Assembly: GCA_020846005.1 (NCBI GenBank) | Contig: JADLEQ010000035.1 | Coordinates: 62,001-126,000 of the forward strand | Direction of reading: 5' to 3' | Origin: Polyangiaceae bacterium | GTDB taxonomy: Bacteria; Myxococcota_A; Polyangia; Polyangiales; Polyangiaceae | Length of the DNA: 64,000 bases | Shown: positions 19,997 through 28,816 of the stretch, one piece after another | Numbering within the stretch: position 1 is the first letter of the stretch | Layout: the number at the start of each line of letters is the position of its first letter | Notes under the pieces: generated by a model | What the model saw: the letters and a program-made list of their open reading frames with translations, nothing else | Databases searched by the model: none | Told to the model about the DNA's origin: nothing | Made by a program: the position numbers and the translations under genes

Positions 19997-21193
19997 ATGA
20001 GGCCCTGGGAGCGCGCTCGCGCGGTGTATGCCGCGGAGCTTGAGGCGATCCGCGACGCCGGCCTGGAGAAGCACGAGCGCGTGATCGCGACGCCGCAAGG
20101 CGCCGCGATCCGCGCCGACGGCCAGGACGTCGTCAACTTCTGCGCCAACAACTACCTCGGGCTGTCGAGTCACCCGGAGGTGGTCGCGGCCGCCCAGCGC
20201 GCGCTCATCTCCCACGGGTACGGGATGAGCAGCGTCCGCTTCATCTGCGGGACGCAGGATCTGCACCGCCAGCTCGAGCAGCGGCTCTCGGCGTTCTTCG
20301 GCACCGAGGACACCATCCTCTACTCCTCGTGCTTCGACGCGAACGGCGGCCTGTTCGAGACGCTGCTCGGCGCCGAGGACGCCGTCATCAGCGACGCGCT
20401 GAACCACGCGAGCATCATCGACGGCATCCGCCTCTGCAAGGCGGACCGCCACCGCTACGCCAACGGCGACCTCGCGGAGCTCGAGGCGTGCCTCGTCGCG
20501 ACGCGCGACAAGCGCCTGCGCCTGATCGCGACGGACGGCGTCTTCAGCATGGACGGCTACCTGGCGAAGCTCGACGCCATCTGCGATCTCGCCGAGCGAC
20601 ACGACGCGCTCGTCATGGTGGACGACTCCCACGCGACGGGCTTCGTCGGCCCGACGGGCCGTGGCACGCCGGAGCACCACGGCGTGATGGCGCGCGTCGA
20701 CGTGATGACGAGCACGCTGGGCAAGGCGCTCGGCGGCGCGAGCGGCGGCTTCACGACCGGCCGGCGAGAGCTCATCTCGCTCCTGCGCCAGCGGTCGCGG
20801 CCGTACCTGTTCTCGAATTCGCTGGCGCCCGCCATCGCGGGGGCGAGCCTCGCCGTCCTCGACCTGCTCGAGCGGAGCGGCGAGCTCCGCGAGCGCGTGA
20901 TGTCGAACGCGCGACGCTTCCGTGACGGGATGAGCCGCGCGGGGTTCGAGCTGCGCGAGGGATCGCACCCGATCGTCCCGGTCATGATCGGAGACGCGCG
21001 CCGGGCCGCCGAGCTCGCCCACGCGCTGCTGGCGGACGGTATCTATGTGATCGGCTTCTCGTATCCGGTCGTCCCGAAGGGCGCGGCCCGGATCCGCGTG
21101 CAGCTCTCCGCGCAGCACACGCCCGAGCAGGTCGAGCAGGCCATCGCCGCCTTCGGCCGGCGCGGCCGCGAGCTCGGCGTGCTCCCCGGCTGA
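19997..21193 (+). CDS. kbl: Glycine C-acetyltransferase (2-amino-3-ketobutyrate CoA ligase)
   Basis: 398 residues, full length for the alpha-oxoamine synthase family. A PLP enzyme that cleaves 2-amino-3-ketobutyrate with CoA to glycine and acetyl-CoA in threonine breakdown. Signatures are [50 protein letters not shown] and the Schiff-base lysine Lys243 in [13 protein letters not shown]. The GTPEHHGV and [11 protein letters not shown] segments match Kbl better than KAS, HemA or BioF. The partner threonine dehydrogenase (tdh) is not in the window. Confidence 0.95.
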
Positions 21194-21403: not shown

Positions 21404-22924
21404 ATGAACCCGCCCGCGATCGTGTTGTCCGTGAACCCGTCCCGGCGCGCGCTGCGCTGGCTCGCCAGCGCCGTCGCCCTCGCGGCGGCGAGCGCGGTCG
21501 TCGCCTGCGGCGAGGGTACGGGCGCGTCCAAGCCGAAGGGCACCGGCGGAACAGACGGTGGAGACGGCGGAGGCGGCGCCGCCGGCAGCGGAGCGATCGA
21601 CTCGTTCCCCTACACCCCCGCCGGCTGCGGCTACACGGTTGCGCCGCCGGACGTAGCCGAGTCGGCGGGCAACACCGACACCTTCGGAGCGGACGCCACT
21701 CCCCGATACCTCCACTCGAGCTGGCCGGGCGAGACCCACACGGGCTTCGCGGTCAACTGGGTCACCGATCTCGACACGCTCGCAACGCAGATGCTCATCG
21801 GCAAGGAGCGGACGGCGGTCGAAGGGGCCGATGCAGCGTCTGCCGGCGTGACGCTCCAGTACGGCCACACCATGCTCTACGGCAGTGTGCTCTTTGCTGA
21901 TTCGAAGCAGCGAGCCCACGAGGTCCACGTGTGCGGTCTCGATGCGGACACGACCTACTACTACAAGGTCGGCGGCCCCGGTCACTGGAGCCAGACCTAC
22001 GAGTTCTCCACCGCGCCGACCCCTGGGACGGCCGCACCCTTCAAGTTCGCAGTCCTGGGAGACTCGCGGAGCGGCCCGGAGATCTACGCACAAATCCAGA
22101 AGGCCGCGTTCGATGAAGGCGCGGACTTCCAGCTGTTCAGCGGCGACTTCGTCGACAACACCCAGAACCAGAGCCAGTGGGAGGCGCTGTTCGGCGGGGC
22201 TTCCAGCGGCTTCGCCGTCCAAGACGCGCTCGCCCAGCGACCGATGATGCCGGCCAACGGCAACCACGACAACCTCTCTGCCTACTACAACGGGCTGATG
22301 GCGCTGCCGCAGGACGTGAGTCAGGGGGAGAGCGCGCAGGGCGAGGAGTGGTACTCGTTCGACTATGCGAACGCGCACTTCGTCGTCGTGAACAGCGAGT
22401 CGCCGGCGGCGACACTGACAACGCAGCGCGAGTGGATGCGCGCCGATCTCGCGAAGGTCGACCGGGCAGAGACGCCCTGGATCTTCGTCTCCTTCCACAC
22501 GCCCACGTATTCGTGCGCGTCGACGCACGAGGGCGACCAACTGCCCATCCGTGCGGCCTGGCAGCCGGTGTTCGATGAGTTCGAGGTCGACTTCGTGCTG
22601 ATGGGCCACGTCCACAACTACCAGCGCACGGTCCCGATCCGAGGTTTCCAGCCGGGCGGGACGGAGGGGCAGGTGGCCGCGAAGGGAGCGAACGACGTGC
22701 CGGTCATCGATGGCGCCGGCAAAGCGAGCGGCACCCTCTACGTCCTCTCGGCCGGTGCGGGAGGCGACCTCTACGGCGTCAAGCCCGCGAGCGAGTGCTA
22801 TTTCGCCTCCAAGACTGAGGAGACGAACAACTGGGGGCTGTTCGCCTTGGATGGCAAGCAGGTCGCGTTCACCGCGTACAAGCTCGACGGCTCGGTGATG
22901 GATCAGCTCACGTTCACGAAATGA
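21404..22924 (+). CDS. Purple-acid-phosphatase-like metallophosphoesterase lipoprotein
   Basis: 506 residues from the ATG at 21404, preceded by GGAGG. The signal peptide ends in a lipobox (SAVVAC) and is followed by a Gly-rich spacer. An N-terminal beta domain (about 80-210, with VHVCGLDADTTYYYKVGG) matches the fibronectin-like domain of purple acid phosphatases. The catalytic domain has the metal motifs in order: VLGDSRSG, SGDFVDN, NGNHDN, VSFHTP and MGHVHNYQR. It likely hydrolyses phosphomonoesters outside the cytoplasm. Its stop overlaps the next start as ATGA, placing it first in a five-gene coupled run. Third-position GC is slightly lower than in neighbours, which may indicate transfer. 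Confidence 0.88.
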   Translation: MNPPAIVLSVNPSRRALRWLASAVALAAASAVVACGEGTGASKPKGTGGTDGGDGGGGAAGSGAIDSFPYTPAGCGYTVAPPDVAESAGNTDTFGADATPRYLHSSWPGETHTGFAVNWVTDLDTLATQMLIGKERTAVEGADAASAGVTLQYGHTMLYGSVLFADSKQRAHEVHVCGLDADTTYYYKVGGPGHWSQTYEFSTAPTPGTAAPFKFAVLGDSRSGPEIYAQIQKAAFDEGADFQLFSGDFVDNTQNQSQWEALFGGASSGFAVQDALAQRPMMPANGNHDNLSAYYNGLMALPQDVSQGESAQGEEWYSFDYANAHFVVVNSESPAATLTTQREWMRADLAKVDRAETPWIFVSFHTPTYSCASTHEGDQLPIRAAWQPVFDEFEVDFVLMGHVHNYQRTVPIRGFQPGGTEGQVAAKGANDVPVIDGAGKASGTLYVLSAGAGGDLYGVKPASECYFASKTEETNNWGLFALDGKQVAFTAYKLDGSVMDQLTFTK

Positions 22925-23919
22925 TCCCGCGCCTCGTGGCGTGGCTCACCCTGGCCCTCGGGCTGATGGCGGGGCACGCCCGAGCCGAGACGCAGACCGA
23001 TCTCGTGCGCGCCGCGGAGCGGGCGGAGCGCGCGCTCCGGTTCCGCGAGGCGCTCGGGGCATGGCGAGAGGCGGCGAGCGCCGAGCCGGGCACGCGCCTG
23101 GGGGCGCGCGCCAGGGCTCGCGCGGAGTACCTGGCGGCCCGCCAGGAGGGAGACTTCGCTCCGCTCGTCGCGCTGGAGCAGATGCGGCGGCGCCCGCAGG
23201 GTGAGGTCCGAGCGCCGCTGGTCGAGGCCTTCACCGAGGAGGTCGAGGCGATGCCGCGGGGGCGGGTCCGAGTGGAGGCGAGGGGGGTCGTCGCCGAGGC
23301 CTGGCTCCGCTCGCTGAAGGAGCCGCGCCGCGCCGTCACCGCGTTCGAGGCTTGGATCGCAGAGCCCGGGATCGAGTCCGGAGAAGAGAAGCTCGCGGTG
23401 CTCGGCCTCGCGCAGGCGCGCGCCGAGCTCGGCGAGTACTCGGCGTCGTTCGAGCTCCTGCGGGAGGCGGGCCTCGATCGGCTCATCGTCGCGAGCCGGC
23501 TCCGCGTCGCCAGCGTCCGCGGCTGGGCCACTCCGCTCGCGATCGCCGCCATCGCCGGGTTCATCGCCGCCGGGCTGTGGCTCGGCGGCCGGCGCCTCCT
23601 CCGCCGCGCCACGTGGACGCGAGCGTTCGCGCCTGCGCGGCTGGCGGTGGGCGCGTGGGCGCTCGGGGTGCCGCTCGCGCTGGCGTGGCTGCACCGCTAC
23701 GAGACGTGGCGCGGGCTCTCGCTCGCGCTCCCGCTGATGGCGGCGCTGCTCGCCGGGGCGTCGGTGTTCGGCGCCGCGCTCGGCGCGGCCGCGCCTCCGC
23801 GACGCTACGGCCTGGGGCTCTCGGTGCTCGGTGTCGCCGCGCAGGTCGGAGCGTTCTACCTCGGGCTCGACTCGCGCGACGGGCTGGTCCCCCTCGCGCT
23901 CGCGCTGAGGCTCGTCTGA
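22921..23919 (+). CDS. TPR-like protein with four C-terminal membrane helices
   Basis: 332 residues. The start overlaps the phosphatase stop by four bases. A cleavable signal peptide (WLTLALGLMAGHARA) leads to a helical, Arg/Ala-rich extracytoplasmic region of about 170 residues with TPR-like units (RALRFREALGAWREAASAEP). Then come at least four membrane segments between residues 200 and 325 (TPLAIAAIAGFIAAGLWLGG, LAVGAWALGVPLALAWL, LPLMAALLAGASVFGAALG, LSVLGVAAQVGAFYLGL). I do not recognise the family. The coupling to a secreted phosphatase and three small membrane proteins suggests a membrane complex; this is inference. Confidence 0.75.
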   Translation: MIPRLVAWLTLALGLMAGHARAETQTDLVRAAERAERALRFREALGAWREAASAEPGTRLGARARARAEYLAARQEGDFAPLVALEQMRRRPQGEVRAPLVEAFTEEVEAMPRGRVRVEARGVVAEAWLRSLKEPRRAVTAFEAWIAEPGIESGEEKLAVLGLAQARAELGEYSASFELLREAGLDRLIVASRLRVASVRGWATPLAIAAIAGFIAAGLWLGGRRLLRRATWTRAFAPARLAVGAWALGVPLALAWLHRYETWRGLSLALPLMAALLAGASVFGAALGAAAPPRRYGLGLSVLGVAAQVGAFYLGLDSRDGLVPLALALRLV

Positions 23920-24116
23920 TGCGATCAGGGTCACCCGGCGCACCTTCGCAGCGCCCACGGTCGAACGGCTCGAGCGACGCCACCATCCTGACGCTCGTGG
24001 GGCTCACGCTGATCGGCGCGTGCGCGCTCACAGCGCTCGCGCTGGGCAGAGGCCGCGCCCGCCCGGAGCCGCCCGAGCTGCCCCCGGATCCGGAGGAGCG
24101 TGAGCGCCGCGACTGA
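23919..24116 (+). CDS. Small single-span membrane protein
   Basis: 65 residues. The ATG overlaps the preceding stop as TGATG. It has a Ser/Arg-rich N-terminus, one hydrophobic helix (ILTLVGLTLIGACALTALAL) and a Pro/Glu/Arg-rich tail ending PDPEERERRD. Its size and layout recall small accessory subunits of membrane complexes, but no family is recognised. The overlaps on both sides and the GC-rich third positions support translation. Confidence 0.65.
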   Translation: MRSGSPGAPSQRPRSNGSSDATILTLVGLTLIGACALTALALGRGRARPEPPELPPDPEERERRD

Positions 24117-24450
24117 CCGCGCCGCCGCCGCCCGCGTCGAGCGCCGCGAGCGGATCGCCATCGGCGGCCTCGTCCTCGCGTGGGTGACGCCCTCGACGTA
24201 CGCGGCGCAGCGCGTCTTGGAGGTCGCGCTCGGTGAGGCCGGGAGCCCAGCGATGGTGCTGCGCGCGGTGCACACGATGTACTACTGGCGAGCGGGCGTC
24301 GCGCTCTGGTGGGGCATCACCGCGGCGGTGCTCGCCGCCGCGTGGCTCGAGCGGCGGCCGCAGCACCTGGCACCGGCAGGCCGATGGTTGGGGTACTTGC
24401 TCCCGCTCACCGCGGCGATCGTGCTGATCGTGAGCTTCGCGCTGCCATGA
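24100..24450 (+). CDS. Small membrane protein, three predicted helices
   Basis: 116 residues from a GTG start overlapping the previous gene by 17 bases. After a charged N-terminus it has about three membrane helices (IAIGGLVLAWVTPSTYAA, YWRAGVALWWGITAAVLAAAW, WLGYLLPLTAAIVLIVSFAL). One loop carries His and Tyr residues in VLRAVHTMYYWRAG. It is unrecognised. It ends in ATGA overlap with the following gene, so the run remains translationally coupled. Confidence 0.65.
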   Translation: MSAATDRAAAARVERRERIAIGGLVLAWVTPSTYAAQRVLEVALGEAGSPAMVLRAVHTMYYWRAGVALWWGITAAVLAAAWLERRPQHLAPAGRWLGYLLPLTAAIVLIVSFALP

Positions 24451-24884
24451 TGCTCGATCGGATCCTCCAGGCAGTGCATGGGCACCTCGGCGTCCTCACC
24501 GCGGCCGCGCTGCTGCACCCTGCCCTCCTCCTCCGCGCGGGCAAGCCGCTCGGGCGACGCAACGTGTGGAGCGTCGCCCTCTCGACCGCCTTCGCCGTCT
24601 CGGCGTGGGCGAGCGGCGCCTGGATCTACGCCGGGTACCGCGCGCTGGTGAAGCGCCCGCTCTTCCTGGCGAGCGAGCGGGCGGGGCTGCTCTTCGAGAC
24701 GAAGGAGCACCTCGCGGTGCTCGTCGTGGGCTTCGCCGCCGGCGCGTGCGTGGCGGCGCTGCTCGCGCCCCGCGAGGCGGCTGGCCTCCGTCGCACGGCG
24801 GCCGTCGCCTACGCCGCCGCGGCGCTCGTCTGCCTCATCGTCTCGGCGCTCGGCACCTGGGTCACGGCGATCCGCGGCTTCTAG
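24447..24884 (+). CDS. Four-helix membrane protein with paired histidines
   Basis: 145 residues from the first of two adjacent ATGs. Helix 1 (VHGHLGVLTAAALLHPALLL) contains three histidines and helix 3 begins TKEHLAVLVVGFAAGACVAAL. Two more helices lie at VWSVALSTAFAVSAWASGAWIY and VAYAAAALVCLIVSALGTW. Histidines facing each other from helices 1 and 3 would suit b-type heme or metal binding, but this is inference and no family is recognised. Last gene of the run starting at 21404. Its stop overlaps the stop of the convergent gene. Confidence 0.68.
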   Translation: MMLDRILQAVHGHLGVLTAAALLHPALLLRAGKPLGRRNVWSVALSTAFAVSAWASGAWIYAGYRALVKRPLFLASERAGLLFETKEHLAVLVVGFAAGACVAALLAPREAAGLRRTAAVAYAAAALVCLIVSALGTWVTAIRGF

Positions 24885-25342
24885 CCGGGCTCCCGGGAAG
24901 GAGGCGGCGCGCCGAGGCGTACGCCTGCGTTGAGACCGAAGATGCGCGCGCGGCGGCCGCGCACGAACGTCACGATCACGGCGGTGACCCACGCGAAGAA
25001 GACCGTGCCGCTCACGACGTACGGGACCCACCCCACCCCAGCGGCTGCGGCCGCCGCCACCGCGGCCGGCGCCTGGAACCGCTCCACGAGCCCGACGATC
25101 GCCTTGAACACGCAGGCCGTGCTCCCAAGCCGGTAGGCCGACACCTCGCGGCGCTGCCACTCCGCGAAGCTCGCGGCGTCCACCCCCGGATGATCCGCGA
25201 GGACCTGCCGGCGCGCGTCGAGCAGGCGCACCGTGTAGATGACGGCGAGGACCGCCGCGAGCACGTCGAAGATCACGGCGCGATGGTGGCGCGGAACGCG
25301 CCGCTCCGCCACCGGGCGCGAACGTCGCACGAAGCGCGGCAC
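24881..25342 (-). CDS. Small membrane protein of unknown function
   Basis: 153 residues. It has a basic N-terminus, then hydrophobic helices near VIFDVLAAVLAVIYTV, in the Ala-rich segment around AAAGVGWVPYV, and VVSGTVFFAWVTAVIVTFV. A conserved-looking amphipathic loop (DAASFAEWQRREVSAYRLGS) lies between. I do not recognise it. An internal start at about 25275 would remove the Arg-rich leader. It converges on the operon at 21404-24884 with stops sharing CTAG. Confidence 0.6.
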   Translation of the reverse strand: MPRFVRRSRPVAERRVPRHHRAVIFDVLAAVLAVIYTVRLLDARRQVLADHPGVDAASFAEWQRREVSAYRLGSTACVFKAIVGLVERFQAPAAVAAAAAAGVGWVPYVVSGTVFFAWVTAVIVTFVRGRRARIFGLNAGVRLGAPPPSREPG

Positions 25343-26752: not shown

Positions 26753-28816
26753 TCAGATCGAGCTGTCGAACTGCTGGCACGTCAGGGACTGCCAGTTCGA
26801 CGGGAGGTTGCCGTACGCGGTCGCGGAGGGCGTGGCGCCGACGGAGCAGCCCGTCTGGCAGCTCGCCACCGAGAAGGGCTGGCCGCTGTAGCGGCAGTCC
26901 CCCTCGCTGAAGCCGCCCGCCGTGTAGCAACCGGCGCACTTGGCGCAGAAGTCGGTGCAGAACGGCTCGCCCCAACCGCCGCCGCTGCTCCCGCCGGTGC
27001 CGCTGCTCCCGCCGGTGCCGCCGCTGCCCCCGGTACCCCCGCTGCCCCCGGTACCCCCGCTGCCCCCGACGCCAAACCCGGTGGAGTCGACGTACGTCGT
27101 CCACTCGTCGATGATCTGGCCGTTCAGGATCTTGTAGTACCCACGCGCCTTGCGCGGGTCGCCGTCCGCTCCGAGCACGAGGAAGGCCGCCCCGGCGCCG
27201 CTGGAGGACTTCGTCGTCCGCACTCCGTCGTTGATGGTGACGTTGCTCGTCCATCCGCTGGACCACCAGGTGTCGTCGTCGTGGCGGCTCGCGCTGTACG
27301 TACGCAGGCTCGATCCGCCCGCACCGTTGACGACCACGTAGGTCTTGCCGAGCGCCAGCGAGAGCACATCCCACGCGCCCGTCGCGCCGTGCGCGTTGGC
27401 GCCGTTGCCGACGTCCGTGAGCGTCAGCGTGCGCCCGTACGAGTGCTCATGGCCGTTGACGATGAGCGCCCCCTGCGCCTGGCAGCGCTGGAACACGCCC
27501 CATCCAGCCTCGTTGCCCTTGTCGCCGAGCTGCAGGTCGGACTGGTTCACGTGCCAGCCGCAGATTCGCCAGATATGGTGGCTCGCCTCGAGTTGCTGCT
27601 GGAGGAACGACTCGTGGCCGGTGCCCATCAGGCCGACGCCGCTCAGCATGAAGTGCAGGCCGCGGTAGGTGCAAGCGTGCTTCACGCCCGGCTCGCCGAC
27701 ACACGAGGCGCCGGTGATTTGAGCGAGCTTCGCGTCGATCACCTGGCGGTAGCCATTCCACGCGTCCGTATCGTGGTTGCCGACGACGGCGAACCACGGG
27801 ATGTCCCCGAAGTTGCTCATCAGGCTGCTCCACGCGGTCGGGTTGTCGGAGTAGTCGAAGTCCCCGAGGTGGAGCACGAGGTCGGCGCCCTCCGCCACGA
27901 TCAGATCGACGAGCGCCCGCGAGTTGGAGTTGTTCCCCTGGTCGCCGAAGAACGCGACCTTTAGCCCGGGATCCGGTTCGACCAGGGACGGCCCGCCGTC
28001 GCCGCCATCGCCTGGGACGCCGCCCGCGCCGGCCGAGCCGCCGCCAGCGCCCGCAGCCCCGCCGGAGGAACCGCCAGCGCCGCCGGCGGACGCGTCCACG
28101 TCGCCCCCGGTGCCACCCCCTCCTCCCGTACCGCCGGCGCCCGAGGACGCGCCGGTACCCCCGCTCCCGCCACCACCCCCACCGCCGCCGCCGCCACCCG
28201 TCGCCCCGGCACCCGAGGTGCCGCCCGAGCCGCCCGACGCGCCGCCCGCGCCCGCGACACCGGCGCCACCCGACGCCCCGGCGGCGCCCGACGCGGCGCC
28301 GGCTCCCGCCGTGCCCCCGCCACCGGACACGCCGCCCGCACCCGACGCGCCCGAGGTGCCCCCGCCCGACGCGCCCGATGCGCCCGAGGTCGCGCCCGTC
28401 CCCGAGACGCCAGCGCTGCCGCCCGCGCCCGCGGTCCCGCCCGCTCCGGACGTGCCGCTTGCGCCAGACGTGCCGCCCGCGCCGGCCGCTCCGCCTGCGG
28501 CGGTGCCTCCTGCCCCGGAGGTGCCACCTGCAGCGCCCGCGCCCGACGCGCCCCCGGTGGAGCCAGCGCTCCCGCCCGTGCCTCCTCCACCGGAGCCGCC
28601 CGACCCGCCGCCGCCGGTCGCCCCGCCACCGGAGCCGCCCGACCCGCCGCCGCCCGACGACGCCCCGGCCACGCCGGAGGCTCCGCCTCCCGCCTGGCCA
28701 CCGTCGTCGCCCGAGCCGCTGCAAGCCACCGCGGTCGCGGCGACGAGCAGGCACGCGTGGGAGAACGCACGTTGGGGGATCCGGTGGGGTCGCGGGGGGC
28801 GCAGCGAGGCATGCAT
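26753..28816 (-). CDS. Calcineurin-like phosphoesterase lipoprotein with long Gly-rich spacer
   Basis: 687 residues. The lipoprotein signal ends AATAVACSGSG. Residues of about 35-285 are an uninterrupted Gly/Ser/Ala/Thr spacer of [10 protein letters not shown] type. The catalytic domain (about 290-570) carries VAFFGDQGNN, HLGDFDYSDN, VVGNHDT, ICGWHVNQ and NGHEHSYGR, the metal-binding series of calcineurin-like phosphoesterases. A second Gly-rich repeat follows (GGSGGTGGSGG type), and then a Cys-rich C-terminal module with at least seven cysteines (FCTDFCAKCAGCY) that may be disulfide-bonded and bind a surface ligand. A secreted, surface-tethered phosphatase or nuclease is likely; the substrate is unknown. 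Confidence 0.85.
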   Translation of the reverse strand: MHASLRPPRPHRIPQRAFSHACLLVAATAVACSGSGDDGGQAGGGASGVAGASSGGGGSGGSGGGATGGGGSGGSGGGGTGGSAGSTGGASGAGAAGGTSGAGGTAAGGAAGAGGTSGASGTSGAGGTAGAGGSAGVSGTGATSGASGASGGGTSGASGAGGVSGGGGTAGAGAASGAAGASGGAGVAGAGGASGGSGGTSGAGATGGGGGGGGGGGSGGTGASSGAGGTGGGGGTGGDVDASAGGAGGSSGGAAGAGGGSAGAGGVPGDGGDGGPSLVEPDPGLKVAFFGDQGNNSNSRALVDLIVAEGADLVLHLGDFDYSDNPTAWSSLMSNFGDIPWFAVVGNHDTDAWNGYRQVIDAKLAQITGASCVGEPGVKHACTYRGLHFMLSGVGLMGTGHESFLQQQLEASHHIWRICGWHVNQSDLQLGDKGNEAGWGVFQRCQAQGALIVNGHEHSYGRTLTLTDVGNGANAHGATGAWDVLSLALGKTYVVVNGAGGSSLRTYSASRHDDDTWWSSGWTSNVTINDGVRTTKSSSGAGAAFLVLGADGDPRKARGYYKILNGQIIDEWTTYVDSTGFGVGGSGGTGGSGGTGGSGGTGGSSGTGGSSGGGWGEPFCTDFCAKCAGCYTAGGFSEGDCRYSGQPFSVASCQTGCSVGATPSATAYGNLPSNWQSLTCQQFDSSI
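27963..28712. repeat. Low-complexity DNA encoding the Gly-rich spacer
   Basis: About 750 bases of imperfect 9- to 18-base units coding on the minus strand for [12 protein letters not shown]-like repeats. Unit lengths are multiples of three, so copy-number change would alter tether length without breaking the frame. Confidence 0.8.

Follow-up and report, generated by a model that had tools for sequence, protein, structure and literature searches.

The known peptides modified by radical S-adenosylmethionine (SAM) enzymes with a SPASM domain serve as secreted products, as soluble cofactors or as the active sites of enzymes. The mycofactocin maturase (TIGR03962) and GeoRSP (TIGR04303) are radical-SAM/SPASM enzymes encoded beside a short peptide gene, and the anaerobic sulfatase-maturating enzymes (anSME/AtsB) are SPASM enzymes that turn a Cys or Ser of a sulfatase into formylglycine (PMC5682303). 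Here, we analyzed a 64,000-nucleotide stretch of DNA from a Polyangiaceae bacterium (contig JADLEQ010000035.1, positions 62,001 to 126,000; "the window"), in which a preliminary description had proposed that five overlapping genes, here called A to E, encode an undescribed envelope complex. The five genes are real and are part of an apparently undescribed Myxococcota membrane module with the recurrent order B-C-R-D-E, in which B is a protein with a TPR domain and four transmembrane (TM) helices, C a one-span peptide, R a radical-SAM/SPASM enzyme, and D and E small membrane proteins. R is missing from the window because the lineage has lost it, so the most telling component of the module could not have been revealed by the window alone. 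Pairs of a radical-SAM enzyme and a peptide are of a known kind; what would be new is a peptide that is retained in the membrane, is conserved across a phylum and has constant membrane partners, fusions to the enzyme and enzyme-free descendants. Literature searches, including searches with motif strings, found no description of such a system in the one library covered, where absence is not proof.

A recurrent membrane module in Myxococcota

In the window, A (21404-22924; 506 amino acids), B (22921-23919; 332 amino acids), C (23919-24116; 65 amino acids), D (24100-24450; 116 amino acids, GTG start) and E (24447-24884; 145 amino acids) all lie on the + strand and overlap at all four junctions, by 4 bases (ATGA) at A/B, 1 base (TGATG) at B/C, 17 bases at C/D and 4 bases (ATGA) at D/E, with the coordinates and overlaps first reported. 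B-E had been called unrecognizable, and indeed none of them matched a curated family in Pfam and NCBIfam scans, which returned only scattered sub-threshold matches for B-E together with all aligned members. Scans for sigma-70 promoters, terminators and Rfam families found nothing in the region of A-E.

Up to 20 kb was taken around matches in near genomes, and then around matches in a phylum-wide sample and one species-collection scan, and every fetched locus was annotated with profiles of E, D, B, R and C. Homologues of E, D and B were found in 21, 13 and 20 of the 59 near genomes, respectively, and occur throughout the order and the phylum. The recurrent order in relatives, B-C-R-D-E, is complete in 13 clusters, is followed by A in 6 more and appears as A-B-C-D-E-R in 4, across many families; in 49 of the 59 loci that hold D, E follows directly downstream, and in 42 of these 49 adjacent pairs start and stop overlap by 4 bases. 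In the phylum sample of 329 genomes, E is present in 74 and R in 69: 60 genomes hold both, 14 only E, 9 only R and 246 neither (Fisher p = 4e-42, uncorrected for relatedness), and those with both are spread over many families. That A-E might be an accidental run of unrelated small genes, as the want of curated family matches for B-E could suggest, is refuted by the order and coupling conserved across the phylum, and the probability left to it is negligible. The translational coupling of the window genes is conserved in relatives, but these five genes do not make up the conserved unit: the neighbourhood, expected to be conserved across Polyangiales, is conserved even phylum-wide, as a core of B-C-R-D-E from which the window has lost R. 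The small proteins do occur apart to some extent, which the preliminary description would have counted against its complex, since 36 distinct loci hold E alone; yet D adjoins E at the large majority of its loci. At two loci, B is upstream of C-R-D-E but separated from it by other genes, at a distance of 10.7 kb in L079 and 3.6 kb in L080, and one Myxococcota-type E gene (L182, CAMAWH010000030.1) was found in a record titled Klebsiella pneumoniae, a title that is probably a mislabelled metagenome-assembled genome.

R combines a radical-SAM domain (Pfam PF04055, 9e-14) with a SPASM domain (TIGR04085, 32.2 bits versus a cut-off of 27), and its invariant cysteines comprise C70, C74 and C77 of the CxxxCxxC motif and seven in the SPASM region (C306, C324, C361, C364, C370, C374 and C391). 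Its best solved relatives include PqqE (6c8v, E = 8e-27) and the sactipeptide enzyme SkfB, but R reaches only 77 bits against the PqqE cut-off of 381, and no other partners of the pyrroloquinoline quinone (PQQ) pathway were seen among the recurrent genes of the module. The strongest curated neighbours of R are the mycofactocin maturase and GeoRSP, yet all members fall far below both cut-offs (for example, 95 bits versus 265 and 82 versus 400, respectively), and R is likewise far below the cut-offs of all other curated maturase families. The module differs from the mycofactocin and GeoRSP systems in that its peptide has a membrane span and the partners D, E and B. At one locus (L203; G105:C148:17508-18479), the R match is interrupted by one TGA and two TAG codons next to an intact C motif, indicating either a decaying gene or assembly errors.

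Before its span, C carries the consensus G-x-x-[AP]-N-[C/S]-S-[SA]-x-G. Among 56 distinct R-linked C peptides, S3 is present in all 56, G6 in 55, G-3 in 54 and N1 in 53, while position 2 is taken by Cys (49 peptides) or Ser (7 peptides). An in-frame fusion of C to R, as one open frame, was seen in 22 distinct cases. We dropped the idea that the Cys is always needed, as the Ser-type clusters (L112, L118, L122, L215, L218, L223 and L225) have R. Some C peptides have repeat tails (L084, 5823-6509; L138, 7351-8691), made up of His-Glu (EHEHEH...) or Thr-Glu/Asp.

Joint loss of R and the peptide motif

Six genomes, among them that of the window (G000, 99% complete; the others are G001, G006, G053, G343 and G359), lack R throughout and have clusters of the form A-B-C-D(-E). 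The best radical-SAM matches in these genomes reach 137 bits or less, compared with 270-615 bits for nearly all R, and in the window's genome, where R was not found, the best match (119 bits) is a generic radical-SAM protein. In all six, C is without the motif: the corresponding residues read RSNGSSDAT in the window and TANGSSDST in L061, QTGGGGT in L064, LTGGGGV in L209, RSGGGGN in L140 and ARTGIGT in L065, and nothing corresponds in L141. The window and L061, the nearest pair, retain N-x-S-S with Gly in place of the Cys/Ser, so that the motif of the window's C has degenerated to N-G-S-S-D. Where R is present in the genome but away from the other cluster genes (G044, G024 and G054), the C motif is kept. 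R and the motif have thus been lost together, and at least two such co-losses are favoured, because in a concatenated A+B+D+E tree L065 groups with L165, which has R (95/93), and apart from the remaining R-less rows, and an approximately unbiased (AU) test on the L065+L165 branch gives p = 0.042, just below 0.05. The window's C itself is assigned by its position between B and D, by N-x-S-S and by its counterpart in L061, a homologue at the same position in a genome of the same genus.

What R may act on

The module as now defined (B-C-R-D-E, often with A) is recurrent and apparently unnamed, and the central question it raises is whether R modifies C. The best reading of the near-invariant motif, the fusions and the co-loss is that R modifies the Cys/Ser of C or at least requires this residue. 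On balance, we think it probable that A-E in the window are the maturase-less descendant of a module in which R modifies C, and B, C, D and E assemble into a complex in the membrane. Also in favour are the recurrent gene order, the co-occurrence of E and R, the cysteines that R keeps and its relatives PqqE and SkfB, as well as the conserved polar cluster of E, the charges and the presence of A near clusters but not near E-only loci. In the ancestral form, R would act on the Cys or Ser of the motif, just before the span, and the modified C would remain alongside B, D and E in the inner membrane; in the window's lineage, where R and the Cys/Ser were lost together, the modification step would be gone, and C would persist as a simple subunit with a single span, its translation coupled to that of its partners. 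If this is true, a SPASM-modified peptide that remains membrane-bound together with small, conserved membrane proteins would represent a new use of such peptides. A broader proposal, that a Myxococcota envelope complex has phylum-wide, as its smallest subunit, a membrane peptide with a permanent Cys/Ser modification installed by the radical-SAM enzyme, and that some lineages, including the window's, have switched to an unmodified form through joint loss of the enzyme and the residue, is plausible but tentative. The natural enzyme-peptide fusions, the Cys- and Ser-type motifs and the lineages without the enzyme offer ready-made comparisons.

As to the chemistry, R and C resemble anSME/AtsB and their substrates in the SPASM family of the enzyme and in the use of Cys or Ser at the same motif position. 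Since Cys and Ser interchange in the same way in anSME substrates, the simplest guess is that this residue is oxidized to an aldehyde, for instance formylglycine, although we rate this as rather unlikely. The analogy is only suggestive because the sulfatase motif is absent: in place of C/S-x-P/A-x-R, the membrane peptide C carries N-[C/S]-S-[SA]-x-G, and there is no sulfatase among the module's recurrent genes.

Several observations weigh against the favoured reading. R falls short of the peptide, PQQ and heme maturase cut-offs by equally wide margins, which leaves room for a non-peptide substrate, and a C that serves as a mere membrane tether or docking tag for R could also give rise to co-loss. 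The charge around the span of C is ambiguous, with 3.0 Lys/Arg before and 3.5 after it, and does not fix its orientation; with a cytoplasmic R and a span that crosses the membrane, the motif would end up outside, and C would have to be modified before insertion. The R-less losses are confined to one corner of the tree, with the borderline p value given above, and the window's C scores about 0 bits with the C profile, that is, it gives no sequence match.

The structures of the membrane partners bear on where such a complex would sit. In B, which starts with a signal peptide or N-terminal span and had been noted as a TPR/4-helix protein, the TPR assignment and the four helices both held, and are now placed as a TPR domain followed by four predicted C-terminal TM helices: this is the arrangement in the AlphaFold2 model (mean predicted local distance difference test score [pLDDT] 91.7), TPR structures align on model residues ∼76-205 with Z ∼10-12, and Pfam TPR_2 is matched weakly by 7 of 15 B homologues. 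Positive charges after TM1 place the TPR domain outside, and B would thus expose it to the periplasm. D, with about 3 spans, has invariant Y34, R64 and P116 and nearly invariant R38, P50 and W63 (alignment A2). E is modelled as a bundle of four long helices (pLDDT 95.5; predicted template-modelling score 0.88), and H11, G12, H24, P25, Y61, F83, E84, K86, E87, H88 and A90 are invariant in a 60-sequence alignment (A5). From their places in the helices, H11, Y61 and E84-H88 should share one half of the bundle, across from the Arg-rich loop that joins helices 1 and 2, and this conserved half therefore probably faces the periplasm, an orientation that we infer from the charges; the helix 2-3 end is also positive. 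In the proposed complex, both D and E would point most of their conserved residues toward this face.

The invariant histidines of E (H11, H24 and H88), as candidate heme ligands, bear on the main alternative. In it, the substrate of R is a small molecule or a cofactor, such as a heme or quinone that E binds, and C serves as a membrane tether or docking peptide that brings R to the D-E complex, with a motif that decays once R is lost. All 11 R proteins tested match the heme maturases NirJ2 and AhbC as well as PQQ and mycofactocin maturases, the E histidines lie at similar depth in helices 1 and 3, COX15-CtaA is matched weakly by 3 of 19 E proteins (best 6.5e-4), and the C-R fusions resemble an anchored enzyme. 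However, a near-invariant N-[C/S]-S-[SA]-x-G would be superfluous in a tether, and the interchange of Cys and Ser at one site resembles a reacting residue. Nor did a fold search of the E model place any heme protein clearly above other helical bundles; it returned generic four-helix bundles and, weakly, cytochrome c oxidase subunit III, with VIA-align Z values up to 13 that are not informative for helical bundles, and a profile search of E against PDB sequences gave chance matches only. We consider this alternative somewhat unlikely.

In relatives, C is a ribosomal peptide that adjoins or is fused to a modifying enzyme, as in the definition of a precursor of ribosomally synthesized and post-translationally modified peptides (RiPPs); in the window it is not. 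A short peptide adjoining a radical-SAM/SPASM enzyme would also fit a pathway that turns C, as the precursor, into a secreted RiPP natural product, but C retains a span and one nearly invariant motif phylum-wide, unlike diversifying core peptides, is often fused to the enzyme, and has neither a peptidase nor an exporter among the recurrent genes of the module, making such a pathway very improbable.

The phosphatase A and neighbouring genes

A had been described as a purple-acid-phosphatase-like lipoprotein, and this is borne out by a predicted lipobox (VVAC, Cys35) and by two Pfam domains above cut-off, Metallophos (PF00149; 6e-14, 53.3 bits versus 21.5) and Pur_ac_phosph_N (PF16656; 8e-13, 49.3 bits versus 30). 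Matches to the purple acid phosphatases 1xzw and 1kbp in the PDB range from 1e-24 to 1e-22, and A shares with them the N-terminal domain, the metallophosphoesterase domain and most of the metal-ligand motifs (GDs, GDf, GNHd, Htp and GHvH). Unlike them, it is a predicted lipoprotein, and the position of the metal-binding Tyr is not clearly conserved (GDFVDN versus GDLSYAD in the kidney bean enzyme, where the local alignment is uncertain).

A is a frequent partner of the module, present near 19 of 51 distinct clusters but at none of the 36 E-only loci (Fisher p = 9e-6). Its placement varies: it may precede B or, on the other strand, follow E, and it may be divergent or convergent. In the close relatives (L061, L064, L065, L085, L099, L100, L136, L138-L143, L156 and L165) A adjoins B, and so the phosphatase does keep this neighbourhood there. 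A stoichiometric five-protein envelope complex around A, as the overlap of all four window junctions had suggested, would agree with A being upstream of or beside B in the whole clade that holds the window. It is nonetheless improbable, given that 32 of the 51 clusters are without A, that A is on the other strand in many, that E so often stands apart, and that overlapping starts are commonplace in such dense genomes. What stands of the earlier proposal is an uncharacterized, conserved envelope module with coupled small membrane proteins. In the maturase-less descendant that we favour for the window, A would be an accessory phosphoesterase, periplasmic or anchored in the outer membrane, that works with or on the complex. 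In L085 (954-3878), A is present in two tandem copies upstream of B.

Downstream of the module and outside it, F (24881-25342, - strand) encodes a small membrane protein convergent with E, whose stop it overlaps by 4 bases. No homologue of F was found among the fetched loci L061-L095, and its site is that of the opposite-strand R in L099, L100 and L136. Directly upstream of A is a + strand gene (19997-21193) that we take, from its sequence pattern, to encode a glycine C-acetyltransferase-like protein (alpha-oxoamine synthase); another gene presumably similar to pyridoxal phosphate (PLP)-dependent synthases (family f15) precedes B in L068 and L079, which may be a coincidence. Finally, a - strand gene (26753-28816), 1.9 kb from the operon and outside the module, encodes another metallophosphoesterase-like protein, which begins with a very long stretch rich in Gly, Ala and Ser.

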